From positions 806,001-870,000 of the forward strand of contig NZ_CP087719.1 of the NCBI RefSeq assembly GCF_020991085.1: 64,000 bases of DNA. The letters run 5' to 3'. The stretch's first letter is position 1. The number at the start of each line of letters is the position of its first letter. This DNA is from Roseomonas sp. OT10 (GTDB taxonomy: Bacteria; Pseudomonadota; Alphaproteobacteria; Acetobacterales; Acetobacteraceae). The notes beneath the pieces were generated by a model that did not search any database, had not been told where the DNA came from, and saw only the letters and a program-made list of their open reading frames with translations. Of this stretch, positions 7,171 through 56,602 are shown piece after piece. The translations under genes were made by a program, and so were the position numbers.

Positions 7171-7745
7171 CTGATCCGCTCGGCGCGATGCGCTGACGCC
7201 TGCCAGCGTGGCGCCTGTGGCCGGGGGCAAGGCGCTGCCTCGCCCCCGTACCCCCACTCCGCCAGGACCCTGCGGGCCCTGGACCCGATTGGTGCTGCCG
7301 CGGGACAGCCTGCGACGGGGTCACGGCGCCGAGGAGCCACGCTCCTCGGCGAGCACGGCGTCCGCCCTCGCTGACACCTTCTGAGCTTTTTCAGAGTTCC
7401 GCCTGTCCGTGTTTCGTCAGGGTTCAGCCCGCAGGCTGACGGCATCTCCGGAGAGCCATGTGTGGACGGCCCCCTTGGTACAAGTGGGATGGGACGTTGA
7501 GAGGCCGCGGTCGGGTGCGGTCATGTGTCCGGCCTGTTGATGCGCCTGTTGACCACTGCCCTGATGCAGTCCGCGGCCCGGCTCCCAACCAAACTCCTGC
7601 CGGGGACCGGGGCCCGCTTGTGGCCCGGCAGGGGAGGGTCGGGGACGGGGATCGACGCACGGCGTCGATGCCGCAGGCCGGCGTCCCCTCCCGGTCCGAC
7701 GCCCGAACACCACAGCATGACGGGTCATCCCGCCGTCGGTATAGG
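7171..7745 (+). repeat. Dispersed MITE-like element, copy A (longest, about 575 bp)
   Basis: Fills the gap between the convergent nucleotidyltransferase and HNH genes. The same sequence recurs at 33947-34359 (inverted) and 56154-56602. The ends form an imperfect inverted repeat of about 20 bp (13 of 20 match in this copy). Internal palindromes shared with the other copies include GCCGAGGAGC/GCTCCTCGGC with a three-base loop (7328-7350), an arm pair CCAGGACCC/GGGCCCTGG, and ATCGACGC/GCGTCGAT. This copy carries roughly 120 extra bases (about 7445-7590) absent from the others. No convincing protein is encoded. Open frames through it are best read as GC-rich artefacts. Confidence 0.85.
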
Positions 7746-7752
7746 CCCCGCC

Positions 7753-8154
7753 CTATCGGCATCCCTGTGGCCGGGGGCGCCAGCCCAGGCGGCAGTCCCG
7801 CTCGGTGTTGCAGCGCCGGCAGGCCACGGCGAGGTTGGCCGGGCGGTCGGTGCCGCCCAGCTTGCGGGGCAGGATGTGCTCGAAGCTCGGCCGGTCCGCG
7901 GGATCGGCGGCGGTCTCCTCCATGCGCTTGCCGCAGTGGCAGCAGCGGTGGTTCTGCTCGCCCGAGAGCCGCTCGCGGAAGCGGGGCGTGTTCCAGCGCG
8001 TGTCGCCGGTCAGCCGGGCATCCTCGCACAGCAGCCGCAGGTGCCGCTCCTCCCAGGGATTCGCGGCGACCGCTGCCTCGCGGTCGGGGCCGCGATGGCA
8101 GGCCCAGGCGGCGTCCATCTCCTGGCGGCGTCGTTCCGCGTCCCGGGTGATCAT
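7753..8154 (-). CDS. HNH endonuclease
   Basis: A 133-residue small nuclease of the HNH family. The C-terminal half has the zinc and catalytic module: CCHCGKRM, then FEHILPRKLGGTDRPANL with the HNH histidine, and CRRCN closing the second Cys pair. The N-terminal half is charged and probably helical. It could act in DNA repair or restriction, or be a relic of a mobile element; family membership does not say which. I start at the ATG preceded by GTGGGG; an ATG six codons upstream lacks a ribosome-binding site. It stands alone, with its stop eight bases from the end of repeat copy A. Confidence 0.8.
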   Translation of the reverse strand: MITRDAERRRQEMDAAWACHRGPDREAAVAANPWEERHLRLLCEDARLTGDTRWNTPRFRERLSGEQNHRCCHCGKRMEETAADPADRPSFEHILPRKLGGTDRPANLAVACRRCNTERDCRLGWRPRPQGCR

Positions 8155-8226
8155 GGCCCCACCATGCCTCATGGTGGCTGAACGTCCTGGGGTGGCGCCG
8201 GGGTTCCGGCGCTGCCCCCGGATCGC

Positions 8227-8460
8227 TCAGCGTCGCAGGAAGACGGGCAGGCCGCCAGCCTGCCCAGGCGCCAGGCCGGCCGGGCCGCCCCGGTCCGGCG
8301 GCGCCGTCCGGGTGGCGGTGGTCATCGCCAGGGCGGGCGGCCACCCGGTGGCCGGGGCGCTACCGCCGTGCTCAAGGGCCTTTCCGGCCAGCGCCGGCAC
8401 TGCCGCCGCATCGACCGGGAGAGCCACGGCCGCAGCGAGTCGAGAGAGGACGAGGGGCAT
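8227..8460 (-). CDS. Possible small exported protein, unknown function
   Basis: A 77-residue open frame inside the 535-base gap between the HNH and GntR genes. It begins MPLVLSRLAAAVALPVDAAA, which could be a signal peptide, and continues with an Ala, Gly and Pro-rich tail without recognisable motifs. The ribosome-binding site is weak. Codon composition fits coding DNA, but GC-rich non-coding DNA in this genome also gives such frames. I do not recognise it. The rest of the gap is AT-richer promoter sequence for the GntR gene. Confidence 0.25.
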   Translation of the reverse strand: MPLVLSRLAAAVALPVDAAAVPALAGKALEHGGSAPATGWPPALAMTTATRTAPPDRGGPAGLAPGQAGGLPVFLRR

Positions 8461-8598
8461 GGCAGCCGCTTCCCTGGGCCGCGGGCCCCATTGCCCGCCG
8501 GCTCCGTGGATATGTGTTCTCCATTCGATCTGAAGAACCGCTGAAATTCCGCAATCCGGCATCGCAAGACATGATGATTCGCATGGCTTCCGCGCAAA

Positions 8599-8608
8599 CT
8601 GTCTACAA
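8599..8608 (+). promoter_or_regulatory. Upstream GntR/FCD operator candidate
   Basis: CTGTCTACAA matches the FadR-subfamily GntR consensus TnGTnnACnA at all but the first fixed position. It lies 82 bases before the chosen start of the GntR gene, and 74 bases from a perfect match at 8673. The pairing suggests autoregulation of the GntR-acnD-prpF operon, perhaps with looping or cooperative binding. Confidence 0.5.
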
Positions 8609-8672
8609 GATGCAGCATGGGTGGTAGCAGAGTGCCGGAATTGCCGTGTAACCCGGTCAGAAATGCCGATTC

Positions 8673-8682
8673 TTGTCGACAA
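8673..8682 (+). promoter_or_regulatory. Perfect GntR/FCD operator candidate
   Basis: TTGTCGACAA is a perfect ten-base palindrome and an exact match to TnGTnnACnA, the half-site pattern bound by FadR-type GntR regulators. It sits seven bases before the ATG at 8690, so binding would block transcription or translation initiation of the operon. Its position also argues that translation starts at 8690 rather than at the ATG at 8663, which would put the operator inside the coding region. Confidence 0.6.
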
Positions 8683-8689
8683 CAAACCA

Positions 8690-9411
8690 ATGGCGGGCCT
8701 GTCCCCGGCGGAGCCGGGTAGCGATACCCTGGCGGAGGCCCTGGTCCAGCGCATCGGCGATGCGATCATCCAGGGGGAACTCGCCCTGGGCTCCCGCATC
8801 AGCGAGCCCACCCTGGCGCGCCGCTACCAGGTCAGCCGCGGACCCCTGCGGGAGGCGCTGAACCGGCTGCAGGAGCGGCGGCTGATCGACCGGGTCCCGC
8901 GCCTCGGCGCGCGGGTCGTCACGCTGTCGGCGGAGACGCTGCGCCAGATCTACGGCGTCCGCGGCGCGCTGGAGGGGATGGCGGCGCGCGAGGCCGCCTC
9001 CGTCATGGCGCCGGAGGACCTGGCCGGGCTGCGCCGGCTGCTGGCGGCGCAGGGCGCGGCGCTGGAGGCCTCGGGCGACGACGCCCCCAATGCGCTGGGC
9101 CGCGCCGACGAGGATTTCCACGCGCTGATCGCGCGCGCCAGCGGCAACGCGCTGCTGGTGCGGCTGCTCTGCGACGACCTCTACCAGCAGCTCCGCCTCT
9201 ACCGCTCGCAGCTGCGCCGCGTCGCCGGGCGTGGGCGGCGCGCGGTGGAGGAGCACCGCCGCATCCTCGACGCGATCGAGGACCGCGACCCCGAAATGGC
9301 CGAGTTGCAGATGCGGCGGCACATCGCCGCCTCCTATGCCGCCCTCGTGCCCAGCTTCGCGCCGGATGGCGCGGCCGCGCCACGTCGGCGCAGGAAGAAG
9401 GAACGCCCGGA

Positions 9412-9415
<4 letters not shown>
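8690..9415 (+). CDS. GntR-family (FadR/FCD) regulator of acnD-prpF
   Basis: A 241-residue transcription regulator. The winged helix-turn-helix is near the N-terminus (SRISEPTLARRYQVSRGPLR, then ALNRLQERRLIDR). The C-terminal two thirds form an all-helical FCD ligand domain with the metal-binding pattern of Asp and His residues (ADEDFHALI, then EEHRRILDAI and MRRHI). It overlaps the acnD start by four bases (ATGA), so it is co-translated with its likely targets. The ligand may be methylcitrate or another tricarboxylate (inference). The start is uncertain: ATG at 8663 or GTG at 8621 would lengthen the N-terminus, and no candidate has a clear ribosome-binding site. Confidence 0.85.
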
Positions 9416-12068
<2,653 letters not shown>

Positions 12069-12072
<4 letters not shown>

Positions 12073-13217
12073 GCCTGATCCGCATCCCCGCCGTCTACAT
12101 GCGCGGCGGCACCAGCCGCGCGCTGTTCTTCCACCAGCGCGACCTGCCGGCGGAACGCGCGGCCTGGGACGCGATCTTCTGCGCCGCCCTGGGCAGCCCG
12201 GACCCGAACGGACGGCAGCTCGACGGCATGGGGGGCGGCATCTCCTCCCTCTCCAAGGTCGCGGTCATCGGTCCGCCCAGCCGCGACGATGCGGATGTGG
12301 ACTACACCTTCGCCCAGGTGCAGGTGACGGAGGCGCTGGTCGGCTATCGCGGCAACTGCGGCAACATCTCCTCCGCCGTCGGGCCCTTCGCGCTGGAGGA
12401 GGGGCTGGTCGCGGCCTCCGGCGACCGCGCCACGGTGCGCATCCACAACACCAACACGCGCAAGGTGATCGTGGCCGAGTTCCCGTTGCGCGACGGGCTG
12501 CTCGACCCCGACGGCGATTTCGCGCTGCAGGGGATCGGCGGCACGGCGGCGCCGATCCGCCTCGCCTTCCGCGAGCCCGGCGGGGCCGCGACCGGCCGCC
12601 TGCTGCCCTCCGGCGAGGCGCGGCAGGTGCTGGAGGTGGAAGGGCTCGGCGCGCTGGAGGTATCGCTGGTCGATGCCGCCAATCCCGTGGTCTTCGTCGC
12701 GGCGGAAACCCTCGGCCTGACGGGCTCGGAGAAGCCGGACGCGCTGACCGCCGATCCCGCGCGCCTCGCGCAGTTCGAGGCGATCCGCGTCGCCGCCGCC
12801 GTCGCCATGGGGCTGGTGGGCGAGGCGGAGGAGGCGCGGCGCAAGGTGAAGAACGTGCCGCAGGTGATGCTGGTGGCCCCGCCGCGCGACGCGCCCTCGG
12901 CCACCGGCGCGACGCTGCGCGCGGAGGAGATGGACGTGCTGGTGCGCGCCGTCTCCGCCGGGCTGCCGCACAAGGCGACGCCGCTGACGGGAGCCATGTG
13001 CCTGGCCGTCGCGGCGCGCATCCCGGGCTCGCTGCCGCAGCGCCTCGCCCGGCCACGCAGCGAGAGCGAGGACCTGCGCGTCGCGCACCCCTCCGGCATC
13101 CTGCCCGTGGCCGCGCGCACCCGCGTCGAGGATGGCGCCGTCATCGCCGAGGAGGCGGTGGTCTACCGCACCGCGCGCCGGCTGATGGAAGGCCGCGTGC
13201 TCGCCCGGCTGCCGTGA
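12069..13217 (+). CDS. prpF: PrpF-family aconitate isomerase
   Basis: A 382-residue diaminopimelate-epimerase-fold isomerase. It converts 2-methyl-trans-aconitate made by AcnD to the cis form used by the next cycle enzyme. Family features are RIPAVYMRGGTSRALFF at the N-terminus, the YRGNCGNISSAVGPFAL region around the active-site Cys, and HKATPLTGAMCLAVAARIPG near the C-terminus. Start is a GTG overlapping the acnD stop by four bases. Related enzymes act on other tricarboxylates such as aconitate or tricarballylate, and the Bug receptors downstream leave that possible here. Confidence 0.9.
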
Positions 13218-13352
13218 TGCGCGGCGGGCCGGAACGCGCGCCGCAGGCCGGGGCCATCGCCGGCTGCCCTCGGCCGGCGGGCGGGTCTATGCTCCGCGCA
13301 AAGGCCGACGGCGCACGGAATGGCGCCGCGGCGGGAGGAAGCGAGGAACGCC

Positions 13353-14300: not shown

Positions 14301-14451
14301 CACCCGGCCCACCCCGCCACGGGGCGAGGCCGGTCCGGCCGCGGGGCCGCGACACCCGGGAGCGACGGACGGGGCTGCCCGGGCGGCGCCCCGGTTCGCG
14401 GTGCCGTGCGCTCCCTCCGAACCACCCGACCAGCAAGACAGGAAACGTCCC

Positions 14452-16443: not shown

Positions 16444-16449
16444 GCCGGT

Positions 16450-31141: not shown

Positions 31142-32134
31142 ATGTCGGACATCACGCGCGACGCCACCCATTCCGACCGCAACCTCGCCCTGGAGCTGGT
31201 GCGGGTGACCGAGGCGGCGGCGCTCGCCGCCTCCGCCTGGATCGGGCGGGGCGACAAGAACTCGGCCGACGGCGCCGCGGTGGACGCGATGCGCCGCGCC
31301 TTCGACGCGGTGGCCATCACCGGCACGGTGGTGATCGGCGAGGGCGAGATGGACGAGGCGCCGATGCTCTACATCGGCGAGAAGGTCGGGGCCGGCGGCA
31401 TGGCGGTGGACATCGCCGTGGACCCGCTGGAAGGCACCTCGATCACCGCCAAGGGCGGCCCCAACGCGATCGCCGTGCTGGCGGTGGCGGAATCCGGCGG
31501 CTTCCTGCACGCGCCCGACATCTACATGGACAAGATCGCGGTGGGCCCCGGCCTGCCGGCGGGGGTGGTGGACCTGGACGCCACCCCGGCCCAGAACCTG
31601 CGCGAGCTGGCACGGGCCAAGAAGTGCGACATCAACGACTTGGTCGTCTGCACCCTGGACCGCGACCGCCACAAGGAGATGATCCGCGCCTGCCGCGAGG
31701 CGGGCGCGCGCATCATGCTGCTGGGCGATGGCGACGTGGCCGGCGTGGTCGCCTGCTCCCAGCCCGAGGCGGGGGTGGACATCTACATGGGCTCGGGCGG
31801 CGCGCCGGAGGGCGTGCTGGCCGCCGCCGCCTTCCGCTGCATCGGCGGCCAGCTCCAGGGCCGGCTGCTCTACGAGGATGACAGCCAGGTCGAGCGCGCC
31901 AAGGCCATGGGCATCCTCGACCCGCACAAGAAGTTCTCGACCCACGAGATGGCGCGGGGCGACGTGATCTTCGCCGCGACCGGCGTGACCACCGGCGCCT
32001 TCCTGCGCGGCGTGCGCAAGACCGGCCAGGGCGCCGTGACGCATTCCATCGTCATGCGCAGCAAGACGGGCACCGTCCGCTACATCGAGGGCCACCACAA
32101 CCAGACCCTGAAGCCGGGCCGCTTCTTTGCCTGA
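31142..32134 (+). CDS. glpX: Class II fructose-1,6-bisphosphatase
   Basis: Hydrolyses fructose-1,6-bisphosphate in gluconeogenesis. The GlpX-type enzyme has 330 residues with the metal-binding motifs GEGEMDEAPMLYIGE and VDPLEGTS, and GSGGAPEGVLAAAAFRCIGG near the C-terminus. GGGAG precedes the ATG. It sits between hom and recJ, an arrangement I believe is conserved in several alphaproteobacteria (from memory). The last bases overlap the recJ start. Confidence 0.95.
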   Translation: MSDITRDATHSDRNLALELVRVTEAAALAASAWIGRGDKNSADGAAVDAMRRAFDAVAITGTVVIGEGEMDEAPMLYIGEKVGAGGMAVDIAVDPLEGTSITAKGGPNAIAVLAVAESGGFLHAPDIYMDKIAVGPGLPAGVVDLDATPAQNLRELARAKKCDINDLVVCTLDRDRHKEMIRACREAGARIMLLGDGDVAGVVACSQPEAGVDIYMGSGGAPEGVLAAAAFRCIGGQLQGRLLYEDDSQVERAKAMGILDPHKKFSTHEMARGDVIFAATGVTTGAFLRGVRKTGQGAVTHSIVMRSKTGTVRYIEGHHNQTLKPGRFFA

Positions 32135-33923
32135 CGGGGAGCCCGGCAGAGCGGCGGGCGCCGAACCGGTCCTCGGCGTCGCCCAGAGCGTCACGGGCCG
32201 CCGCTGGGTCTGGCGCGGCGGCGACGAGCGGCTGGGCCTCGCCATCGCCCAGCGCCTGGCGGTGCCCGAGCTGGTCGGGCGCCTCCTCGCCGGCCGGGGC
32301 GTGAGCCCGGAGGCGGCGCCGGACTTCCTCGACCCGACGCTGCGGGCGCTGCTGCCCGACCCCTCCTGCCTCGTGGACATGGACGCGGCCGCCGACCGGC
32401 TGGCGCGCGCCGTGCGCGAGGGCGAGCGGGTCGCGGTCTATGGCGACTACGACGTGGACGGCGCCTGTTCCGGCGCGCTGATGGTGCGGGTGCTGCGCGC
32501 CCTGGGTTGCGAGGCGGAGCACTACGTCCCCGACCGCATCCGCGAGGGCTACGGCCCCAACCCGGCCGCCATCGCCCGGCTCTGCGAGGACGGCGCGACG
32601 CTGATCGTCTGCGTCGATTGCGGCATCGCGGCGCACGAGGCGCTGGAGGCGGCGCGCGGCCACGCCGAGGTGGTCGTGCTGGACCACCACAAGGCGGAGG
32701 GCCCGCCGCCCCGGATCGTCGCGGCGGTCAACCCCAACCGGATCGACTGCACCTCCGGCCTGAACCATCTCTGCGCCGCGGCGGTGGGCTTCCTGGCCGC
32801 GGTGGCGACCCAGCGGGTGCTGCGCCGCTCCGGCTTCTTCGCCCATCGCGACGAGCCGCGGCTGCTGGAGCTGCTGGACCTCGTGGCGCTGGCCACCGTC
32901 TGCGACGTGATGCCGCTGACCGGGCTGAACCGCGCGCTGGTCGCGCAGGGGCTGAAGGTGATGGCCCGGCGCGAGCGCCCCGGCATCGCCGCGCTGCTGG
33001 AGGTGGCCGGGGTGAAGGAGGCGCCGACCGCCCATACGCTCGGCTACGTCCTCGGCCCCCGCATCAACGCCTCCGGCCGGATCGGCGAGCCGGACCTCGC
33101 CCTGCGGCTGCTGGCCGGGGACGACCCGGTCGAGGCCCGCGCCATGGCGGAGCGGCTGGACGCGGTGAACCGCCGGCGCCAGGAGGTGGAGGCCGACGTC
33201 CTGGGTGCCGCCATCGCCGAGGGCGAGCGGCAGGCGGATGCGGGCAGCCCCGTGCTGCTGGTCTCCCGCGAGGGCTGGCATCCCGGCGTGGTCGGCATCG
33301 TCGCCGGCCGGCTGAAAGAACGCTTCAACCGCCCGTCCCTGGTGGCCGGCATCGCCGACGGGGTGGCGCGTGGCTCCGGCCGCTCGGTCCCTGGCGTCGA
33401 CCTGGGGGCCGCCATCATCGCCGCCCGGCAGTCAGGTTTGCTGCTGACCGGCGGCGGGCATGCCATGGCCGCCGGCTTCTCCTTCGCGCCCGACCGGGAG
33501 TCGGAGCTGCGCGCCTTCCTGGCCGAGCGGCTGAGCCACGCCAACGCCCTGCCAGCCGCGGCCGACCTGGCGGTGGAGGGCACGCTGTCCGTCCAGGCCG
33601 CGACGGCCGAGATGGCGGGGCAGGTGGGACGCCTAGCGCCCTTCGGTCCGGGCAACGAGGAGCCCCTCTTCGCCTTGCGCCGGGCCCGCATCGTGCGCGC
33701 CGACCGCGTCGGACGCGAGGGCGGGACGGTGCGCGCCTTCCTGGAAGGGGAGGGGGGCGGACGGCTGAAGGCCATCTGCTTCCGCGCCAAGGACGGGCCG
33801 CTGGCGCAGCTCCTCCTGACCTCCGGCGGGGCGCCGGTCCACCTGTGCGGCGCGCTGCGGGCGGAAAGCTGGAACGGCACCGTCACCACCAGCCTGCACG
33901 TGCAGGACGCCGCCCGCGCCTGA
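32127..33923 (+). CDS. recJ: Single-stranded-DNA-specific exonuclease RecJ
   Basis: 5'-3' ssDNA exonuclease used in recombination, mismatch and base-excision repair. The protein has 598 residues with DHH-family motifs: YGDYDVDGACSGAL, ICVDCGI, LDHHKAEG, and the DHHA1 GGGHAMAAGF, followed by an OB-fold end. The N-terminal segment GVAQSVTGRRWVWRGG is conserved in RecJ, so the start must lie upstream of it. TTG at 32127, overlapping glpX by eight bases, is the only start codon available there. The dispersed repeat begins 23 bases after the stop. Confidence 0.95.
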   Translation: MPDGEPGRAAGAEPVLGVAQSVTGRRWVWRGGDERLGLAIAQRLAVPELVGRLLAGRGVSPEAAPDFLDPTLRALLPDPSCLVDMDAAADRLARAVREGERVAVYGDYDVDGACSGALMVRVLRALGCEAEHYVPDRIREGYGPNPAAIARLCEDGATLIVCVDCGIAAHEALEAARGHAEVVVLDHHKAEGPPPRIVAAVNPNRIDCTSGLNHLCAAAVGFLAAVATQRVLRRSGFFAHRDEPRLLELLDLVALATVCDVMPLTGLNRALVAQGLKVMARRERPGIAALLEVAGVKEAPTAHTLGYVLGPRINASGRIGEPDLALRLLAGDDPVEARAMAERLDAVNRRRQEVEADVLGAAIAEGERQADAGSPVLLVSREGWHPGVVGIVAGRLKERFNRPSLVAGIADGVARGSGRSVPGVDLGAAIIAARQSGLLLTGGGHAMAAGFSFAPDRESELRAFLAERLSHANALPAAADLAVEGTLSVQAATAEMAGQVGRLAPFGPGNEEPLFALRRARIVRADRVGREGGTVRAFLEGEGGGRLKAICFRAKDGPLAQLLLTSGGAPVHLCGALRAESWNGTVTTSLHVQDAARA

Positions 33924-33946: not shown

Positions 33947-34359
33947 CTGATCCGGACGGCGGGATGACCTGGCCTGTGGTGCTGTCGTGTTCCGGCGTGG
34001 GACCGGGAGGGGACGCCGTCCCCTCCCAGACCCTCCCCTGCCGGGGCCACAAGCGGGCCCCGGACCCCGCTGGGAGTTGGTTCTGTGCGGTGGGTATCAG
34101 TCTGCGGGCTGAACCCTGACGGAGCGCGGACAGGCGGGACTCTGGAAAAACTTCAGAAGGCGTCAGCGAGTGCGGCGGCCGGTCCCGCCGAGGAGCATGG
34201 CTCCTCGGCGCTGTGACCCCGTGTCAGGCTGTCCCGCGGCAGCGCCAATCGGGTCCAGGGCCCGCAGGGTCCTGGCGGAGTGGGGGTACGGGGGCGAGGC
34301 CGCGCCTTGCCCCCGGGCCACGGGCGCCGGACGCCAACGCATCCCGCCGCACGCATGAG
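33947..34359 (-). repeat. Dispersed MITE-like element, copy B (inverted, about 413 bp)
   Basis: Occupies most of the gap between convergent recJ and phbB. It runs opposite to copies A and C. The ends are the clearest of the three: reading inward from each end, 16 of the first 20 bases match (consensus CTGATnCGnnCGGCGGGATG). The hairpin GCCGAGGAGC/GCTCCTCGGC is at 34187-34209. The nested ATCGACGC/GCGTCGAT hairpin of the other copies is missing and replaced by a perfect GGGAGGGGAC/GTCCCCTCCC stem. No coding potential is convincing. The remaining 85 bases to the phbB stop show nothing clear. Confidence 0.87.
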
Positions 34360-34444: not shown

Positions 34445-35167
34445 TCAGTACATGTGCTGGCCGCCGTTGATCGACAGCGTGGAGCCGGTGATGAAGTCCG
34501 CCTCGTCCGCGGTGAGGAAGGCGACGCCGCGGGCGATGTCCTCCGCCGTGCCGAGCCGGCCGCGCGGGATGCGGGCGATGATCTTCTCCAGCACGTCGGG
34601 CGGCACCGCGCGGACCATCTCCGTGTCCACGTAGCCGGGCGCGATGGCGTTCACGGTGATGCCACCCTTGGCGCCTTCCTGCGCCAGCGCCTTGGTGAAG
34701 CCGTGGATGCCCGACTTGGCGGCGGCGTAGTTCACCTGACCGTACTGGCCGGCCTGGCCGTTGATCGAGCCGATGTTGACGATGCGGCCGAACTTCTTGG
34801 CCGTCATGCCGTCCCAGACCAGCTTGCACAGGTTGAAGCAGGAGCCGAGGTTGGTGTCGATCACCTCGTCCCACATCTTCCGGTCCATGCGCTTCATGGT
34901 GCCGTCGCGGGTGATGCCCGCATTGTTCACCAGCACCTCGATCTGGCCGAACTCCTCGGTGATCGCCGCGACCGCCGTCCGGCAGGCCTCGAAGTCGCCC
35001 ACGTCGAACTTGCGGGTCGGGATGCCGGTGCGCTCGGTGAAGGCGGCGGCGGCCGCCTCGTTGCCGGCATAGGAGGCGATGACCGTCCGCCCCTGCGCCT
35101 TCAGCGCCTCGCTGATGGCGGCGCCGATCCCGCGCTGCCCGCCCGTCACCAATGCTACGCGTGCCAT
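34445..35167 (-). CDS. phbB: Acetoacetyl-CoA reductase
   Basis: NADPH-dependent reductase making (R)-3-hydroxybutyryl-CoA for PHB. It is a 240-residue classical SDR with VTGGQRGIGAAISEAL at the N-terminus, NNAGITRDGTMKRM, catalytic Ser in NIGSINGQAGQ and the YxxxK pair in YAAAKSGIHGF. The C-terminal ITGSTLSINGGQHMY ending is diagnostic of PhbB. AAGGAGG seven bases before the ATG is the strongest ribosome-binding site seen in the window. Last gene of the phbA-phaC-DUF6489-phbB operon. Confidence 0.95.
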   Translation of the reverse strand: MARVALVTGGQRGIGAAISEALKAQGRTVIASYAGNEAAAAAFTERTGIPTRKFDVGDFEACRTAVAAITEEFGQIEVLVNNAGITRDGTMKRMDRKMWDEVIDTNLGSCFNLCKLVWDGMTAKKFGRIVNIGSINGQAGQYGQVNYAAAKSGIHGFTKALAQEGAKGGITVNAIAPGYVDTEMVRAVPPDVLEKIIARIPRGRLGTAEDIARGVAFLTADEADFITGSTLSINGGQHMY

Positions 35168-41898: not shown

Positions 41899-43944
41899 TC
41901 AGCCCTTCTTCTTCGGGATGTAGAGGTCGGTGATCGTGCCCTCGAACACCTCCGCCGCCATGCCGATCGTCTCGGACAGGGTGGGGTGGGGGTGGATCGT
42001 CAGGCCGATATCCTCGGCATCCGCGCCCATCTCGATGGCGAGCGCGGCCTCCGCGATCAGGTCGCCCGCGCTGGGCCCCACGATGCCGCAGCCGACCAGG
42101 CGGTGCGTCGCCTCGTCGAACAGCACCTTGGTGATGCCCTCGTCGCGGCCAAGCGAGAGCGAGCGCCCGCTGGCGGCCCAGGGGAAGACCCCCTTGCCGA
42201 GCTTGATGCCCTTCGCCTTCGCCTCGTTCTCCGTCATGCCGACCCAGGCCACCTCGGGGTCGGTATAGGCGACGGAGGGGATGACCTTGGCGTCGAAGAA
42301 GCTGGCCTTGCCCGAGGCCGCCTCCGCCGCCACGCGCCCCTCATGCACCGCCTTGTGGGCGAGCATGGGCTGGCCGACCACGTCGCCGATGGCGAAGATG
42401 TTCGACACGTTGGTGCGCTGCTGCCGGTCCACCGGGATGAAGCCGCGCTCGTCCACTGCGACGCCCGCATTCTCGGCGCCGATCAGCTTGCCGTTGGGGC
42501 GGCGGCCGACGGCGACCAGGACCCGGTCGAAGGTCTCGCTGCTCTGGCCCTTCGGCCCCTCGAAGGTCGCGACCAGCCCCTCGGCCGTCGCCTCGACCTT
42601 CAGCACCTTGGTCTTGAGTAGGATGGCGGCGTAGCGCTTCTCGATCCGCTTCATCAGCGGCGTGACGATGTCCTTGTCGGCGCCGGGAATGATCTGGTCC
42701 ATCAGCTCGACCACCGTCACGGCGGAGCCGAGGCTGTGGTAGACCGTCGCCATCTCCAGCCCGATGATGCCGCCGCCGATGACGAGCAGCTTCTTCGGCA
42801 CGTCCGCCAGTGCCAGTGCGCCCGTGCTGTCGATCACCCGCGGATCGCCATGCGGCACGAAGGGCAGCGTCACCGGCTCCGACCCCGCGGCGATGATCGC
42901 CTGGTCGAAGGTGATGGTCTTGCGCCCGGCCTCGCCCTCCACCGTCACCTCGTTGGCGGCGGTGAAGCGGCCCAGCCCCTGGACCACCGTGACCTTGCGC
43001 TGCTTGGCCAGGCCCGAGAGCCCGCCGGTCAGGCGTTTGACCACGCCGTCCTTCCAGCCGCGCAGCGCGTCGATGTCCACCGAGGGCTTGGCGAAGGTGA
43101 TGCCGGCATGGCCGACCTCCTCCGCCTCGTCCAGCACCTTGGCCGCGTGCAGCAACGCCTTGGACGGGATGCAGCCCACGTTCAGGCAGACGCCGCCCAG
43201 GCTCGGCCAGCGTTCCACCAGCACCACCTGCTTGCCGAGGTCCGCGGCGCGGAAGGCGGCGGTGTAGCCGCCGGGGCCGGCGCCCAGCACCAGCACCTCG
43301 GCATGCAGGTCGCCCTTGCCGGCGGCGGGCTTCGCCGCCGGGGCGGCGATGGCTGGGGCGGCCTGGGGCGCGGGGGCGGCCGGGGCAGGGGCGGCGGCAC
43401 CGGCCGCGCCCTGCAACGTCAGGATCAGCGTGCCCTGGCTGACGCGCTCTCCGACGGCGACCTTCAGCGCCTTCACCACGCCCCCGGCCGGGGCGGGGAT
43501 GTCCATGGTCGCCTTGTCGGATTCCAGCGTCAGCAGCGGGTCGTCCGCCTGGATCGTGGCGCCGGCGGCGACATGCACCTCGATCACCGGCACGTTCTTG
43601 AAGTCGCCGATATCGGGAACGCGGACTTCGATCTCCGCCGCGCCTGCGGGGGCCGCGGAGGGGGCCGCTGCCTGCGCCACCGCGGGCAGGGCCGCCGCGG
43701 CGCCCCCCTCCGCCCCGTCGAGCAGCAGGATCGGCGTGCCCTGGCTGATCCGGTCGCCCGGCTTGACCAGCAGCTTCGCCACCGTCCCCGCCTGCGGCGC
43801 CGGGATGTCCATGGTGGCCTTGTCGGATTCGAGCGTCAGCAGCGGATCGTCCACCGCCACCGTCGCACCCTCGGCCACGTGCACCTCGATGACGGGCACG
43901 TCCTTGAAGTCCCCGATATCGGGGACCTTGATCTCCACGCTCAT
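41899..43944 (-). CDS. lpdA: Dihydrolipoyl dehydrogenase with two N-terminal lipoyl domains
   Basis: E3 subunit of the pyruvate dehydrogenase complex, 681 residues instead of about 470. Two complete lipoyl domains precede the flavoprotein: the lipoylated Lys is expected at Lys42 and Lys144, each in ESDKATMD. Ala and Pro-rich linkers follow each. The E3 body has the FAD motif VLGAGPGGYTAAFRAADLG, the redox pair Cys253 and Cys258 in GGVCLNVGCIPS, and the C-terminal His-Glu pair in HPHPTLSE. The two lipoyl domains share most residues, so this is an internal duplication. GGAGG precedes the ATG. Confidence 0.95.
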   Translation of the reverse strand: MSVEIKVPDIGDFKDVPVIEVHVAEGATVAVDDPLLTLESDKATMDIPAPQAGTVAKLLVKPGDRISQGTPILLLDGAEGGAAAALPAVAQAAAPSAAPAGAAEIEVRVPDIGDFKNVPVIEVHVAAGATIQADDPLLTLESDKATMDIPAPAGGVVKALKVAVGERVSQGTLILTLQGAAGAAAPAPAAPAPQAAPAIAAPAAKPAAGKGDLHAEVLVLGAGPGGYTAAFRAADLGKQVVLVERWPSLGGVCLNVGCIPSKALLHAAKVLDEAEEVGHAGITFAKPSVDIDALRGWKDGVVKRLTGGLSGLAKQRKVTVVQGLGRFTAANEVTVEGEAGRKTITFDQAIIAAGSEPVTLPFVPHGDPRVIDSTGALALADVPKKLLVIGGGIIGLEMATVYHSLGSAVTVVELMDQIIPGADKDIVTPLMKRIEKRYAAILLKTKVLKVEATAEGLVATFEGPKGQSSETFDRVLVAVGRRPNGKLIGAENAGVAVDERGFIPVDRQQRTNVSNIFAIGDVVGQPMLAHKAVHEGRVAAEAASGKASFFDAKVIPSVAYTDPEVAWVGMTENEAKAKGIKLGKGVFPWAASGRSLSLGRDEGITKVLFDEATHRLVGCGIVGPSAGDLIAEAALAIEMGADAEDIGLTIHPHPTLSETIGMAAEVFEGTITDLYIPKKKG

Positions 43945-43969
43945 GCGCGCCGCCTCCCTTCCATTCCCG

Positions 43970-45247
43970 TCACAGCACCAGCCGGCGCACGTCCTCGAGG
44001 ACATGGGCGAGGTGGCGGGTGAAGCGGGCGGCCAGCGCCCCGTCGATCACGCGGTGGTCGTAGGAGACGCAGAGCGGCAACATCAGCCGCGGCTGGAAGG
44101 CCGCGCCATCCCAGACCGGCGCCATCTTCGAGCGCACCACGCCCAGGATCGCGACTTCCGGCGCGTTCACGATGGGGGTGAAGCCCGTGCCGCCGATGCC
44201 GCCCAGGGAGGAGATGGTGAAGGTGCCGCCGGACATGTCCGCCGCGCCCAGCTTGCCGTCGCGCGCCTTCTTGGAGATGGCGCCCATCTCCTGGCTCAGC
44301 TCCACGATGCCCTTGCGGTCGGCATCCTTGATGACGGGCACGACCAGCCCGTCCGGCGTGTCCACCGCGATGCCGATATTGTAGTACTTCTTGAAGATCA
44401 GCGCGTCCTTCTCCGGGCTCAGCGAGCTGTTGAACTCCGGGAAGGCGCGGAGCGCGGAGACGCTGGCCTTGATGAGGAAGGCGAGCAGGGTGACGCGGTA
44501 GCCCTTCTCCTTGCCCGCGGCGTCCAGCTCCTTGCGGTACTTCTCGATCTCCGTGATGTCCGCCTCGTCATTGTGGGTGACGTGCGGGATGTTCAGCCAC
44601 GACCGGTGCAGGTGGGGCCCGGAGAGGCGCTTGATGCGCGCCAGCGGCTTGCTCTCGATCGCGCCGAACTTGGAGAAGTCGACGGCCGGGATCTCGGGGA
44701 TGCCCGAGCCGGCGGCGGGGGCCGGAGCCGCCGCGGCGGCGGCCGGCGCGGGACCGCGCAGAAAGGCCTTCACGTCGTCCGGGGTGATGCGGCCCTTCTC
44801 GCCGCTGCCCTTCAGCGCGGTCAGGTCCACGCCCAATTCGCGCGCCAGGCGGCGGACGGCGGGGCTGGCATGCACGCCGGAGAAGTCGGGCGAGGTGCCG
44901 CCGGCGCGGGTGCTGACCGGGGCAGGGGCGGGAACCGGGGCCTTGTCCTGCGGCGCGGGCTCCTGCTGCGCGATGACGGATGGGGGCGGGGTCACCGGCG
45001 CCTCGGCGGCGGGGGCGCCGCCCTCCAGCACCAGCAGCGGCGTGCCCTGGCTGACCCGGTCGCCGACCTTGACCAGCACCTGCGCGACCTTGCCGCCGGC
45101 ACTGGCCGGGACCTCCATGGTCGCCTTGTCGGATTCCAGGGTGATCAGCGTGTCGTCCACCTGGACCGTGTCCCCGGGGGAGACGTGCACCTCGATGATC
45201 GGCACGTCCTTGAAGTCACCGATGTCGGGGACCGTGATCTGGCTCAT
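43970..45247 (-). CDS. aceF: Pyruvate dehydrogenase E2, dihydrolipoamide acetyltransferase
   Basis: Core subunit that passes the acetyl group to CoA. The 425-residue protein has one lipoyl domain (Lys41 in ESDKATMEV), an Ala/Pro linker, a peripheral subunit-binding domain (VHASPAVRRLARELGVDL, GRITPDDVKAFL), a second linker, and the catalytic domain ending with SYDHRVIDG (His398). With only one lipoyl domain it complements the E3 that carries two. I start at the ATG; a GTG three codons upstream is possible. It lies 25 bases before lpdA. Confidence 0.94.
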   Translation of the reverse strand: MSQITVPDIGDFKDVPIIEVHVSPGDTVQVDDTLITLESDKATMEVPASAGGKVAQVLVKVGDRVSQGTPLLVLEGGAPAAEAPVTPPPSVIAQQEPAPQDKAPVPAPAPVSTRAGGTSPDFSGVHASPAVRRLARELGVDLTALKGSGEKGRITPDDVKAFLRGPAPAAAAAAPAPAAGSGIPEIPAVDFSKFGAIESKPLARIKRLSGPHLHRSWLNIPHVTHNDEADITEIEKYRKELDAAGKEKGYRVTLLAFLIKASVSALRAFPEFNSSLSPEKDALIFKKYYNIGIAVDTPDGLVVPVIKDADRKGIVELSQEMGAISKKARDGKLGAADMSGGTFTISSLGGIGGTGFTPIVNAPEVAILGVVRSKMAPVWDGAAFQPRLMLPLCVSYDHRVIDGALAARFTRHLAHVLEDVRRLVL

Positions 45248-48163: not shown

Positions 48164-48365
48164 GGCGGCTTCCGTCCCTGTCGACGTGTTCTCCTGGCTG
48201 GCGATGCCGACACTCGAATGGCCTCACCTAGAGGCGCCGGCGGCAACCCCACAAGATCGTGGCCGACGCCCGAAAGGTTTCGGACTATCGGCCGGGGCGG
48301 ATGGTTGCGCAACCGACACGCTCATTTGCCTGAGTTGATCTTTGTCTTTTAGAAGAATGCGGTGG

Positions 48366-49082: not shown

Positions 49083-49083
49083 C

Positions 49084-50762: not shown

Positions 50763-50915
50763 CGCAGCATCTCCCGGATCGTTCCCTTGGCCGTGTGGCG
50801 CCGATCCTGGCACGGGTCCGACCTCCGGTCAGTCGGCCGCCGATTCCCGGTGGCGGGGCGGATGGTGGCGGAGCGGGTCAGCCCTTCCGGACACGAGGTT
50901 TCCCTGAGAGGCGCG

Positions 50916-50927
50916 AATGATTATCGT
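50916..50927 (+). promoter_or_regulatory. Fur/Irr-like site before siderophore-receptor gene
   Basis: AATGATTATCGT lies in the divergent region 30 bases before the chosen TTG start of the iron-type binding protein. AATGATTATC matches the second half of the classical Fur box (AATCATTATC) with one mismatch. It is one of the few AT-rich stretches nearby, consistent with iron control by Fur or Irr. Confidence 0.5.
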
Positions 50928-50957
50928 CTGCGCGATCGATCCGTTGCGAGGCGCTCC

Positions 50958-52079
50958 TTGACCCTGCCTTTGCCCCGGCGCGGCCTGCTGCCGCTCGCCG
51001 GCCTCCTGGCCATGCCCGCCCTCGGCCGCGCCGCCGGGGCCGTGACCGTGCGCGACGTCGTCGGCCGCGAGGTGACGCTGCCCGCCCCGGCCAGGCGGCT
51101 GCTGCTGGGGGAGGGGCGCTTCATCCAGCTCCTCGCCCTGCTGGAGCGGCAGGACCCGGCCGGGCTGGTCGCCGCCTGGATGGGCGAGTTCCAGCGCACC
51201 GATCCCCAGGGCCATGCCCAGTTCGTCGCCCGCTTCCCGGCGGCGGCGCGGATCCCCGTGGTCGGCGCCTCGGCCGCCGAGACCTTCTCCATCGAGCGCG
51301 CGCTGGATGCGAGGCCGGACCTCGCCATCCTCGGCCTGGACGGGCACGGGCCGGGCAAGGCCGCCGAGGCGGTGGCGCAACTGGAGCGCGCGGGGGTGCC
51401 CGTCGTCTTCATCGACTTCCGCCAGGAGCCGCTGGAGAACTCCGCCCGCAGCATCGGCCTCGTGGGCCGGCTGATCGGGCGGGAGGCGCAGGCCCGGGAG
51501 TACCTGGATTTCGTCCAGGGCCGGATGGACCGGATCCGCGCCGCCCTGGCCGCCGCCAACCCCGCCCAACCCGCCGTGCTGATGGAGATGCGGGCGGGGG
51601 GCGGGCGGGAATGCTGCGGCTCTCCCGGCCGCGGCAACCTGGGCGAGTTCATCGCCTTCGCCGGCGGCCGCAACATCGGGGCTGACATCATCCCCGGCGC
51701 GCTGGGGCAGCTCAACACCGAATACGTCGTGGCGCAGCAGCCGGCGGTCTACGTCGCCACCGGCGGCACGGGCGGCGGCGCCGATGGTGCGCCGAAGCTG
51801 GGCGCCGGCGTCACCGAGGCGGAGGCGCGCGCGGCGCTGCGCGGCACGGTGGCGCGCACGGGCATCGCGGGACTTCCGGCGGTGCGGGAGGGCCGGGCCC
51901 ACGGCCTGTGGCACAGCTTCTACAACAGCCCGCTGAACATCCTGGCGCTGGAGGCGATGGCGCGGTGGTTCCACCCGCAGATCTTCGCCGATCTCGACCC
52001 CGGCGCGACCCTGGCCGCCATCAACGCGCGCTTCCTGGCCGTGCCACTCGATGGGACCTACTGGGTGTCGCTGCGTTGA
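50958..52079 (+). CDS. Periplasmic iron-siderophore-type binding protein
   Basis: A 373-residue class III binding protein (Peripla_BP_2, TroA-like). The N-terminal signal is [20 protein letters not shown]. The mature part begins [20 protein letters not shown], typical of Fe-siderophore, heme or cobalamin receptors, and [11 protein letters not shown] is the C-lobe start. [14 protein letters not shown], with adjacent Cys residues, is an unusual piece. I choose a TTG with GAGG six bases upstream because the signal peptide begins there and the Fur-like site lies just before it. It heads an operon with permease and ATPase. Confidence 0.87.
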
Positions 52080-53119
52080 GCGCCGCCACCGCCGCGGCGG
52101 GCTATCGCCGCCTGCTCCTGCGGCGCCAGGCGCTGCTGGCGCTGCTCGCCGTGCTGCTGGTCGTGGCGCTGTCCTGCGACGTGCTGACCGGGCCCTCCCG
52201 CCTGCCGCCGGGGGACCTGCTGGCGGTGGTCTTCTCGCCCTCCACCGCGACGGGGCCGCTGCGCGTCATCGTCTGGGACGTGCGCCTGCCCTATGCGCTG
52301 ATGGCCGTCCTCGTCGGCGCCTCGCTGGCGCTGGCGGGGGCGGAGATGCAGACGGTGCTGAACAACCCGCTGGCCAGCCCTTTCACCCTCGGCGTCTCCT
52401 CCGCCGCCTCGCTGGGCGCGGCGCTGGCTATCGTGCTCGGGCGCGGCGTGCCCTGGGTGCCGCAGGACTGGCTGATCCCGGCCAATGCCTTCGTCTTCGC
52501 CTTCGGCTCGATGATGCTGCTGCACTTCATGAGCCGGCTGCGCGGGGCGGGGGTGGATTCCCTCGTGCTGTTCGGCATCGCCCTGGTCTTCGCCTTCAAC
52601 GCGCTCGTCGCGCTGCTCCAGTTCGTCGCCACCGAGCAGGCGCTGCAGCAGCTCGTCTTCTGGTCCATGGGCAGCCTGGCGCGCGCCACCTGGCCCAAGA
52701 TCGGCGTGGCCGCGCTGGCCCTGGCCGTCTGCGTCCCCTTCCTGGTGCGTGCCGCCTGGAAGCTGACGGCGCTGCGCCTGGGCGAGGACCGGGCGCGCTC
52801 CTTCGGCGTGGATGCCGCCGCCCTGCGCCGCGGCGCGCTGCTGCGCGTCAGCCTGCTCGCCGGCGTCTCCGTCGCCTTCGTCGGCACCATCGGCTTCGTC
52901 GGGCTGGTGGGCCCGCACGCCGCGCGGCTGATGGTGGGCGAGGACCACCGCTTCTTCCTGCCGGCCTCGGCGCTCTGCGGCGCGCTGCTGCTCTCGCTCT
53001 CCTCCATCGCGGCCAAGCTGCTCGTCCCCGGCCTGCTGATCCCGATCGGCATCGTCACCGCCCTGGTCGGCGTGCCCGTCTTCATCGCGCTGGTCTTCGG
53101 CCGGGGGCGCGCCGCGTGA
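52076..53119 (+). CDS. FecCD-family iron transporter permease
   Basis: A 347-residue inner-membrane permease with about ten helices. FecCD hallmarks are [20 protein letters not shown] (the RLPR-like motif), [38 protein letters not shown], and [19 protein letters not shown] near the C-terminus. Start is a TTG overlapping the receptor stop by four bases (TTGA), which fits the coupling pattern in this genome. It probably homodimerises, as no second permease is present. Confidence 0.9.
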
Positions 53120-53940
53120 CGGAGCACGTGCGCGCGCCGCTGATCGCGGAGCACATCTCCGTCGGCTATGGCCGGCGGCAGGTGATCCGGGACCTCTCCC
53201 TGGCGCCGATGCTGCCGGGCACCCTCACCGCCCTGGTCGGGCCGAACGGGGCGGGGAAGTCCACCCTGCTGCGCGGCCTCGCCGGGCTGGTGCCGGCGAA
53301 GGGCGCCATCCGCCTGGGGCCGCTCGACCTCGCCGCCATGTCGATCGGGCAGCGGGCGCGCCACGTCTCCTACATGCCGCAGGGCCTGCCCCAGGGCGTG
53401 GCGCTGACGGTGCTGGAGACGCTGGTCGGCGCGCTCAAGGCGGTGGCCCCCGCCTCGGGCCCGGTCACCGGCGAGGAGGCGGCGCGGCGCGGCCTCGCCC
53501 TGCTGGAGCGGCTGGGCGTGGCCGACCTGGCGCTGCGCGGGCTGGACCGCCTCTCCGGCGGGCAGCGCCAGCTCGCGGGCCTGGCCCAGGCGCTGATCCG
53601 CGAGCCGGAGGTGTTGCTGCTGGACGAGCCGACCAGTGCGCTGGACCTCCGCTTCCAGCTCTCGGTGATGGGGCTGGTGCGGGAGATGGTGCTGGAGCAC
53701 GGGCTGGTCGGCGTGGTGGTGCTGCACGACCTGGTGCTGGCCGCGCGCTTCTCGGACCGGGTGGTGATGCTGCACGACGGCGCCCTGGACGCGGACGGCA
53801 CGCCGGAGGAGACGATGACCTCCGCCATGCTGGCCCGCGTCTACGGGGTGCAGGCGCGGATCGAGCGCTGCTCGCAGAACCACCTGCTGGTGCTGGCGGA
53901 CGCGGCCCTGCCGCGGGAGGACGGCGCGGCCCGGGCCTGA
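53116..53940 (+). CDS. FecE-family iron transporter ATPase
   Basis: A 274-residue ABC ATPase. Walker A is [16 protein letters not shown], the signature is [15 protein letters not shown], Walker B is [12 protein letters not shown], and the switch is VVLHDL. The first half carries [19 protein letters not shown] start overlaps the permease stop by four bases. With the receptor and permease it forms a complete importer for a ferric siderophore, heme or vitamin B12; the Fur-like site favours iron. Confidence 0.92.
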
Positions 53941-54026
53941 CCGGCCGCGCCCGGCCCGGCCCGGGGGCACCCTCCCCAGCCGGCGCCGGAGGGGCTACAC
54001 CGGGCATTCCACGCCGCGGAGGGAGG

Positions 54027-55745
54027 ATGCCCGAGGGCATCGCGCCACAGGGCCTGTCGCCGGCCCGCCTCGCCGACCCGTCCGTCACCCCGGCCAGGGC
54101 GGGGCGAGGATCGTCCTGGCGCGTCTCGCCGCTGCTGCGGCGGATCCTGCTGCTGAACGCCCTGCCGCCCTTCCTGCTGGCGGCCTCGCTGCTCTACCTC
54201 GACCAGTACCAGAACGGGCTGCTTGCGGCCGAGGTCGCGGGGCTGCGGACCCAGGCGCGCATCTACGCCAACGGCGTGGCCGAGGCGGCCGTGCGCATGC
54301 GCGACGACAAGCCGATCCTGGACCCGGAGGCGGCGCGCCCGCTGCTGCGCCGCCTGGCCGAGCCGAGCCCCAACGTGCAGGCCAAGCTCTTCGACATCAA
54401 CGGCTTGCTGGTGGCGGACAGCCGCGTGCGGGAAGGCTCGGGCGGCAGCATCGTGACCGAGCCGCTGCCGCCGCCCGACCCGCCCGGCGCGGTGCGCGGG
54501 CTGGCGGACTGGCTGGTGACCAGCCTGCTGCGCTGGGGGGGCGCGCCGCGGGCGCCGAACGACGTCGTGGTGGACCTGCGTCCCGATGCGCCGTCCTTCG
54601 ACTGGCAGCCGGAGTTCGGCGGCCAGAACGGCAATGAGCGGCGCGAGGAGCTGCGCCTCGCCCTGGAGGGCGGGGTGAACCCCTATGTCCGCCGCACGGG
54701 CGACGGCCGGCTGCTGGTGTCGGTGGCGGAGCCGGCGCGGCGGGCCAACCAGTCCGTGGGCATCGTGCTGCTCACCGGCGAGGCGCGGGAGGTGGACCGC
54801 CGGCTGGTGCAGATCCGCGGCAGCGTGCTGGGCCTGTTCGTGCTGGCGCTGGCAGTGACGGTGGGCCTGTCCTTCTACCTCGCCCGCACCCTGGCCTCGC
54901 CGATCCTGGCCCTGGCCCAGGCCGCCCGGGCGATGCGCCAGGGCAAGGGCCGCGCCGGCTCGGTGCCCGCGCCGCTGCTGGCGCGCGGCGACGAGATCGG
55001 CACCCTGGCCCGTGCCTTCCAGGAGGGGGCGACGGCGCTCTGGGCGCGGGTGGACAGCAACGAGCGCTTCGCGGCGGATGTCGCGCACGAGCTGCGCAAC
55101 CCGCTCACCTCCGTCCGCTCCGCCATCGAGACGCTGCGGCGGATCGAGAACCCGGAGCACCGCAACCGTCTGCTGGCCATCATCGCCGAGGATGCGGTGC
55201 GCATGGACCGGCTGATCGGCGACATCGCCGATGCCTCGCGCGTGGATGCGGAGCTGTCGCGCACCGCGACCGAGCCGGTGGACATCGCCCCGATCCTCTC
55301 CGCCCTGGCCGAGCTGCACGCGGCCACGCGGCAGGGCGAGGACGCGCCGCAGCTGGTGCTGGAGGCGCCGGCCCAGGGGCTGGTGGTGCGCGGCGTGGAG
55401 GGACGGCTGGTGCAGGTCCTGCGCAACCTGCTGGGCAATGCCGTCTCCTTCTCGCCGCCCGGCGGCACGGTGACGGTGCGGGCGCGGCCCACCGGGGCGA
55501 TGGTGGAGATCTGCGTCGAGGACGAGGGCCCCGGCATCCCCGAGGCCAAGCTGGAGCACATCTTCGACCGCTTCTACAGCGAGCGGCCGCTGGGCGAGCG
55601 CTTCGGCCAGCATTCGGGCCTCGGCCTGTCCATCTGCCGCCAGATCGTCGAGGGGCTGTCGGGCCGCATCATGGCGGAGAACCGCCGCGACGCCGCGGGT
55701 CACGTGGCCGGGGCCCGCTTCGTCGTGCGCCTGCCCGCGAGCTGA
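54027..55745 (+). CDS. ChvG/ExoS-like sensor histidine kinase
   Basis: A 572-residue membrane sensor. An N-terminal helix (RILLLNALPPFLLAASLLYL) and a second near residue 270 flank a periplasmic domain of about 210 residues. HAMP follows (SPILALAQAARAMRQG). The H-box is FAADVAHELRNPLTS (His354), then N-box RNLLGNAVSF, G1 EDEGPGIPEAKL and G2 GLGLSICRQIVEGLSG. Architecture resembles ChvG/ExoS, which sense envelope or acid stress. The usual chvI regulator upstream and hprK downstream are absent, so the partner must be encoded elsewhere. Confidence 0.85.
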   Translation: MPEGIAPQGLSPARLADPSVTPARAGRGSSWRVSPLLRRILLLNALPPFLLAASLLYLDQYQNGLLAAEVAGLRTQARIYANGVAEAAVRMRDDKPILDPEAARPLLRRLAEPSPNVQAKLFDINGLLVADSRVREGSGGSIVTEPLPPPDPPGAVRGLADWLVTSLLRWGGAPRAPNDVVVDLRPDAPSFDWQPEFGGQNGNERREELRLALEGGVNPYVRRTGDGRLLVSVAEPARRANQSVGIVLLTGEAREVDRRLVQIRGSVLGLFVLALAVTVGLSFYLARTLASPILALAQAARAMRQGKGRAGSVPAPLLARGDEIGTLARAFQEGATALWARVDSNERFAADVAHELRNPLTSVRSAIETLRRIENPEHRNRLLAIIAEDAVRMDRLIGDIADASRVDAELSRTATEPVDIAPILSALAELHAATRQGEDAPQLVLEAPAQGLVVRGVEGRLVQVLRNLLGNAVSFSPPGGTVTVRARPTGAMVEICVEDEGPGIPEAKLEHIFDRFYSERPLGERFGQHSGLGLSICRQIVEGLSGRIMAENRRDAAGHVAGARFVVRLPAS

Positions 55746-55777
55746 CGCGGCCGTACCCCCCCATCCGGACCGAAGGC

Positions 55778-56137
55778 ATGAACGAGGCCCTGATCTACAC
55801 GATGGTCCGCGGCGAGGACTGGCGCGCCGCCGAGGCGGCCGGCGCCTACCACGGCTCCGCCGACGACCGGCGCGACGGCTTCCTGCACTTCTCCACCGCC
55901 GCCCAGTTGCGGCAGAGCGCCGCGAAGCACCGCGCGGGCGAGGCGGACCTGTGGCTGCTGGCGGTGCCGGCCGCCTCCCTGGGCGCGGCACTGCGCTGGG
56001 AGCCGGCGGCGGGCGGGCGGCGGCCCGGCCTCTTCCCGCATCTCTACGGCGCCCTGCCGGTCGCGGCGGTGGAGGCCGCGGTCCCCCTGCCGCTCGGCCC
56101 GGACGGGCTGCACCAATTTCCGCCCGGCATCCCCTGA
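55778..56137 (+). CDS. DUF952 family protein
   Basis: A 119-residue protein matching the DUF952 pattern: ALIYTMVRGEDWRAAEAAGA, YHGSADDRRDGFLHFSTAAQ with the invariant [22 protein letters not shown], and the end FPHLYGALPVAAV. The fold resembles ADP-ribosyl-binding or glutathione-related proteins in some reports, but function is unsettled. It starts 32 bases after the kinase stop and may be co-transcribed. Repeat copy C begins 16 bases after its stop. Confidence 0.88.
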   Translation: MNEALIYTMVRGEDWRAAEAAGAYHGSADDRRDGFLHFSTAAQLRQSAAKHRAGEADLWLLAVPAASLGAALRWEPAAGGRRPGLFPHLYGALPVAAVEAAVPLPLGPDGLHQFPPGIP

Positions 56138-56153
56138 CCGGCTGCCGCCGCGC

Positions 56154-56602
56154 CTCATACGCGCGGTGCGATACCTCGATCCGTGCCGGCGTAGCGCGGG
56201 TGGCCCGGGGGCAAGGCGCTGCCTCGCCCCCGATACCCCCACTCCGCCAGGACCCTGCGGGCCCTGGACCCGGAGGGTGCTGCCGCGGGACAGCCTGCGA
56301 CGGGGTCACGGCGCCGAGGAGCCATGCTCCTCGGCGGGACCGGCCGCCGCACTCGCTGACGCCCTCTGAAAGCTTTCTTCGGAGTCCCGCCTGTCCGCGC
56401 TCCGTCAGGGTTCAGCCCGCAGGCTGACGGCAGCCGCGCAGCACCAGACTCCCAGCTGGGACCGGGGCCCGCTTGTGGCCCCGGCAGGGGAGGGTCCGGG
56501 ACGGGGATCGACGCACGGCGTCGATGCCGCAGGCCGGCATCCCCTCCCGGTCCGCCGCCGGACCATGACGGACAGTTCAGGTCATTCCACCTTCGGTATC
56601 AG
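56154..56602 (+). repeat. Dispersed MITE-like element, copy C (about 449 bp)
   Basis: Same orientation as copy A, lying between the convergent DUF952 gene and a small minus-strand secreted-protein gene. Terminal repeats match at 12 of 20 positions. At one position both ends carry T where both ends of A and B carry C, a paired change. The GCCGAGGAGC/GCTCCTCGGC hairpin is at 56313-56335 and the ATCGACGC/GCGTCGAT hairpin around 56507-56525. The right terminus (CGGTATCAG on the plus strand) supplies the stop codon of the minus-strand gene. No convincing coding sequence lies inside. Confidence 0.87.

Follow-up and report, generated by a model that had tools for sequence, protein, structure and literature searches.

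Evidence for a MITE family with a conserved hairpin interior, probably a mobile bidirectional 3'-end array, in Roseomonas sp. OT10

What is the sequence that recurs three times within a 64,000-nucleotide stretch of the Roseomonas sp. OT10 genome (the whole stretch analysed, hereafter the window), and why does it lie where it does? The original prediction held that the three copies share extended sequence, end in 20-bp inverted repeats, encode no convincing protein and represent a genome-wide family of non-autonomous mobile elements, or of REP/BIME-like repeats, moved by an enzyme encoded elsewhere. Direct comparison within the window bears out the shared sequence: positions 7221-7392 and 34145-34316 (inverted) are 91% identical, 34145-34294 and 56228-56377 (inverted) 91% and 7243-7384 and 56228-56369 (direct) 90%, and a 25-nt core occurs exactly three times against 0.00 expected. 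The predicted termini were almost exact, in that their outer bases, CTGAT, parse as C, the target triplet TGA and T, and the imperfect terminal inverted repeat itself is 16 bp long. Without the triplets, the elements proper span 7175-7741, 33951-34355 and 56158-56598. The copies and the terminal repeats of copy 2 are:

7172-7744, plus strand: copy 1, a long variant, including its terminal triplets; convergent genes at 6430-7146 (plus) and 7753-8154 (minus)
33948-34358, minus strand: copy 2 with its TGA triplets (33948-33950 and 34356-34358)
56155-56601, plus strand: copy 3 including its two TCA triplets; gene called on the left at 55778-56137 (plus)
33951-33966, plus strand: terminal inverted repeat at the genomic left end of copy 2, 0 mismatches
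34340-34355, minus strand: terminal inverted repeat at the genomic right end of copy 2, 1 mismatch

The triplet duplications of copies 2 and 3 are intact (TGA and TCA, respectively), and that of copy 1, with TGA on the left and TAG on the right, is not. Convergent called genes flank copy 2 (32127-33923, plus; 34445-35149, minus). The right triplet of copy 3 (56599-56601) is the stop codon of an ORF at 56599-57111 (minus), which makes copy 3 convergent as well; our gene caller overlooked this ORF, so that copy 3 is scored as codirectional in the context count below. None of the three copies encodes a convincing protein, as had been predicted, since the ORFs of at least 60 aa that touch them, judged by eye, lie across one another in many reading frames, as is usual for GC-rich DNA. 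Copy 1 carries about 135 additional bp in mid-element (window about 7458-7592), across which two other copies of this genome (G000), C1:3503490-3503912 and C1:678492-678930, also align (query 19-447 and 15-445) and which the other scored G000 copies skip; this suggests a longer subfamily represented by these three copies. Elsewhere in the window, at 43333-45232, there are three related 288-nt direct repeats with 70-72% identity to the first, perhaps repeated protein domains.

The family extends throughout the 5.69-Mb genome, as predicted, and further copies are plentiful: the core has 213 matches at up to three mismatches and none for the reversed control, and the terminal pattern has 201 matches at up to two mismatches against 5 for its reversed control. 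We collected 110 copies from the best matches listed for the core and the terminal pattern, about 100 places for each, and from an alignment search, of which 100 were aligned; 18 further copies were found and left out of this set. Across the 100 aligned copies, the terminal repeats mark an abrupt boundary between conserved sequence and random flanks. Element length has a median of 416 bp and a 10-90% range of 408-441 bp among the 61 copies with both ends preserved. The duplication test used the 61 of the 110 copies in which both ends scored at least 15. Identical terminal triplets were found in 46 of them, compared to 24.0 expected from triplet frequencies (TGA/TGA in 24 copies, TCA/TCA in 21, TTA/TTA in 1 and differing triplets in 15), the middle base agrees in 52 compared to 27.0 expected, and of 14 three-base registers tested only the TNA one stands out. 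These counts demonstrate, at the level of sequence, a 3-bp TNA target duplication upon insertion. With sharp-ended terminal inverted repeats, target-site duplications, high copy number and no internal transposase gene, the family qualifies as a MITE, here a DDE-type DNA transposon that is non-autonomous and about 410-440 bp long, and its mobility is well supported.

All 98 termini with no or one mismatch are on contig C1 and none is on the two smaller contigs, C2 and C3, which is why the transposon may be inactive at present. Such termini are sparser in one part of C1: the 0.9 Mb from 0.3 to 1.2 Mb hold 28 of them, and the 1.8 Mb from 1.2 to 3.0 Mb hold 15. An exact scan of genome contigs for the terminal repeat gave seven single matches, in Pseudomonas, Paenibacillus and Clostridia-like records, among which the host is possibly absent; plasmid and phage collections gave no match and viral contigs no exact core, the host's own records being possibly absent from them too. 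A window protein had a single distant relative, at 39%, among virus contigs.

The insertion sites show a second regularity, overlooked by the original prediction: most copies lie between convergent gene ends, often on a stop codon. Of the 109 copies with two called neighbours, 86 are flanked by convergent genes, 23 by codirectional genes and none by divergent genes, compared to 114 convergent, 303 codirectional and 82 divergent among all 499 neighbouring gene pairs of the same stretches, which had been picked around copies; the gene calls come from our own codon-usage caller, by which at least one gene (56599-57111) was overlooked. Among 101 copies in which one end or both are good, 74 have the stop codon of a neighbouring gene as their target triplet, and because an in-frame TGA at that point must be the original stop, the insertion rebuilt the stop codon. 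Special targeting of stop codons was considered and rejected: a random choice of TNA between the two stops predicts 30.8 stop-codon cases among 45 convergent copies, against 35 observed (about 0.06), and as it nearly predicts what is observed, no special targeting is needed. A TNA between convergent genes is very often the TGA stop of either gene, and its duplication restores the stop and leaves the protein intact, a geometry seen in the copies themselves; the survival of such insertions would then account for the pattern. An empty site for copy 2 was sought in 14 genus relatives. The left flanking gene is present in all 14 and the right one clearly in 13, and the two are adjacent in none; in those 13 relatives they lie either on separate contigs or at distant places of a single contig, so that synteny is broken. 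A pattern search beside the orthologous genes found no element except for a hairpin-A-like match in one relative (G006), and the fetched stretches, which cover only part of each genome, show no synteny with each other.

The original prediction also overlooked that the interior of the element is a conserved multi-hairpin array, which occurs across the bacterial family. Two inverted arms of about 120 bp, each with an outer and an inner hairpin, surround a central hairpin C, so that the order is outer hairpin, linker, inner hairpin, central hairpin and then the mirror image. In copy 2 the hairpins are:

34290-34314, minus strand: hairpin A (outer, arm 1), from sequence and covariation
34251-34275, minus strand: hairpin B plus ACCC (inner, arm 1), from sequence and covariation
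34187-34209, minus strand: hairpin C (central), from sequence and covariation
34041-34063, minus strand: hairpin E (inner, arm 2), from sequence; outside the four helices of the covariation count
34005-34027, minus strand: hairpin F (outer, arm 2), from sequence and covariation

None of 100 shuffles folds as well as either strand of copy 2 (z = -5.04 and -4.93), and in the consensus fold the linkers, too, pair with each other (columns 60-66 with 330-336). The inverted alignment of one arm with the other scores 57, compared to a maximum of 48 in 500 shuffles, and 27 of 500 shuffles equal the score once the terminal repeats are removed, so that the inner similarity by itself is modest. Among the 100 aligned copies, the fraction of differences from the consensus is 0.002-0.028 in the stems, 0.104 in the linkers, 0.23-0.25 in the terminal repeats and 0.58 in the flanks, the stem values for hairpin B and part of hairpin A being overstated as conservation because many copies were found by exact core match. 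For covariation within the genus, alignment A1 combined 14 G000 copies (random draw, both ends good) with 25 of 34 copies from relatives, leaving out nine composite copies; one locus appears twice, which gives 38 distinct rows. Among these 38 sequences from four genomes, 14 of 39 pairs in hairpins A, B, C and F changed on both sides, compared to 3-5 in slid controls; the relative copies had been collected by allowing up to four mismatches to the core, a criterion biased towards hairpin B. Hairpin B also holds an A.C mismatch, G.T on the other strand, for which none of the 38 distinct A1 sequences has a standard pair.

A curated Rfam family was rejected as an identity for the array, since the window gave no match at gathering scores; seven loci gave two weak matches below them. 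The single site that a simple terminator scan reported for copy 2, 34059-34074, falls on the edge of hairpin E and is not itself one of the five hairpins, and no T tract directly follows the G000 hairpins by eye.

How widely is this interior shared? The family sample includes five genus relatives, of which G003, G006 and G011 each have 59-100 matches of a 28-nt core and the other two have 1 and 0; the elements of the former three are diverged in sequence and the same in layout, and 1 of 28 arrays in the genus relatives lies between divergent genes. Beside purD, the array is full in G011, shortened in G006 and a remnant in G003 by eye, so that it is not essential there. The G000 copy at purD has an intact TCA duplication and may or may not descend from the same ancient insertion as those of the relatives. 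Three loci of genus relatives (L087, L090 and L097) hold palindromic composites built from two A-B-type arms, and the ends of the L087 and L090 composites resemble the G000 terminal repeats, all by eye.

A covariance model of the kind originally proposed was built for hairpins A-C from 28 sequences (R1) and searched against relatives, with 12 candidates scored per genome under strict filters. It matches 59 of 249 genomes of the bacterial family, in 29 of 102 genera, and at class level 2 of 240 genomes only, G000 itself and G419. Twenty loci from other genera, the best-scoring ones, were fetched and 18 were compared by eye. All 18 begin with an outer hairpin, a linker and an inner hairpin; the mirror-image arm is clear in 12, is present in part in L245 and is not visible in the inspected stretch of L230, L233, L234, L246 and L249. 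A hairpin-linker regular expression, too strict a rule, matched 4 of the 20. L221 has the central hairpin AAAAAGGCC...GGCCTTTTT, for example. The contexts of 24 other-genus arrays are 15 convergent, 9 codirectional and 0 divergent. A set of 31 distinct sequences, drawn almost entirely from other genera, shows changes on both sides in 28 of 30 pairs, compared to 6-14 when slid; of 772 cells, 183 changed on both sides and 757 are Watson-Crick, with 3 G.T, 10 A.C and 2 others, in an alignment that leans towards the covariance model to which it was fitted. By eye, the inspected other-genus loci have no terminal repeat in common, and we infer that the array predates the transposon. In L230 and L233, the DNA after one array arm has a GC content of 48-59% per kb in surroundings of about 70%, which would fit an insertion of foreign cargo into the array. 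At L232:7000-7200, the outer hairpin and linker are repeated in tandem several times.

Based on these results, we consider it reasonably probable that the family is a mobile bidirectional 3'-end (terminator) array, namely a MITE with a structurally conserved hairpin interior. The array would act on the transcripts of both flanking genes, either as a bidirectional terminator or as a 3'-end stabiliser, and possibly terminates transcription from both sides. A function at both 3' ends would explain why the array is tolerated, why its stems are conserved and why it is nearly absent from promoter gaps. Bidirectional use would also explain why nearly all pairs are Watson-Crick, because any G.U pair becomes an A.C when the opposite strand is read. 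A broader scenario, which we put forward only tentatively, is that a class of multi-hairpin 3'-end arrays across the bacterial family, for which we found no name, insulates convergent genes, and that such an array was captured here in a TNA-duplicating transposon and spread as a bidirectional terminator that rebuilds stop codons.

The main rival is that the palindromes matter as DNA, as protein-bound dyads, cruciforms or products of hairpin-templated repair, with no selection on RNA, because such causes would likewise disfavour G.U pairs; the scarcity of G.T (3 of 772 cells) beside so many cells changed on both sides agrees with it. We regard it as unlikely, as two A.C mismatches are fixed rather than repaired in the G000 copies (hairpin A, 96 of 100; hairpin B, 99 of 100, the latter within the search core) and the location at 3' ends fits transcripts better. 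We give no greater weight to an ordinary MITE with a passive interior, whose terminal repeats and duplications are indeed present and whose hairpins would be alike through youth or gene conversion. Gene conversion or hairpin-templated repair could keep stems alike, and the interior linkers, too, resemble each other more closely than the ends do, which is what conversion would produce. Against passivity, the stems of the 100 copies vary by 0.2-2.8% compared to 38% for the loop of hairpin C and 10% for the linkers, stem pairs show compensating changes between species, and the array occurs in many genera where no such terminal repeat is seen by eye.

The other branch of the original prediction was a family of the REP/BIME kind, mobilised by a RAYT (Y1 transposase). 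Palindromes, high copy number and convergent and codirectional 3' ends are features of REPs as well (PMC3733652). This branch is now very improbable: Y1_Tnp has no match in this genome at E 0.01, at which a positive control detected it in 6 of 14 genomes, and a TNA duplication is present, as in DDE transposition. The search for a transposase with the same termini was also negative, as MITE-like ends are absent from the 30 loci checked among 34 DDE_Tnp_1 matches, the only DDE family covered. Of the 98 termini with no or one mismatch, 96 belong to ordinary copies and the other two have no partner end at up to four mismatches nearby (the stretch covered on one side of one of them being 1.3 kb). 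A candidate autonomous copy at C1:4698165 was rejected, being a lone end beside a gene stop with the nearby IS beginning about 210 bp further. A 956-bp IS with 12 copies in this genome has flanks that fit TNA duplications by eye, and its ends, GAGCCTGATCCGAAATT, are unlike those of the MITE, TACGGACGGCGGGATG. At L126 (G000:C1 about 1033901-1036141), an IS with a DDE_Tnp_1 gene adjoins about 255 bp of an element copy, as if it had inserted in or beside that copy. The mobilising partner may have been lost or may have diverged. That the window holds three unrelated terminators or a chance similarity of GC-rich intergenic DNA can be dismissed as next to impossible given the core counts in the window and the genome, even though the termini alone are weak evidence within the window (9 matches at up to three mismatches against 3.1 expected) and strong evidence only genome-wide.

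Among known systems, IS1031-type IS of the IS5 family and the eukaryotic PIF/Harbinger Tourist-like MITEs make a 3-bp TNA duplication, as does the family described here. The MITE does not share its ends with an IS1031-type IS (GAG...), and those of the 956-bp IS of this genome are different from its own. The RIME/ABC elements of Rhizobium are mosaic modules, a likeness to our arrays in different hosts that is one of description only. Two hairpin arms with a joining linker also make up the CIR repeats of Caulobacter and Brucella (PMC2229807), again in different hosts and likened by description only. The Correia/NEMIS and ERIC MITEs have units of <200 bp that are A+T-rich with mostly TA ends, and RNA secondary structure has been proposed to matter in them (PMC2229807); MITEAba12 is 111-114 bp long, makes 9-bp duplications and has a known partner IS (PMC6382973). 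The family described here resembles all three in being non-autonomous and often intergenic, with terminal inverted repeats and target duplication, and differs from them in its median length, GC-richness, TNA duplication, want of a partner among the loci searched and two-arm hairpin array across a bacterial family. REPs are 20-40 bp long with GTAG or CGTC tags and often RAYTs, and have been proposed as terminators or RNA stabilisers (PMC3733652); our family is like them a set of high-copy palindromes preferring convergent and codirectional 3' ends, and unlike them has no RAYT found in this genome. None of the papers listed by the literature searches, which covered few subscription journals and in one case listed 10 of 44 papers, was seen to describe the family or to report MITEs in Roseomonas.

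If the preferred reading of a mobile bidirectional 3'-end array is true, the family would exemplify selfish DNA whose spread depends on its being useful or harmless precisely at gene ends, and it would provide a route for copying termination signals around a genome. Hairpins with the same layout and different sequences across genera would, moreover, form a natural experiment for distinguishing among selection on RNA, selection on DNA palindromes and repair artefacts.
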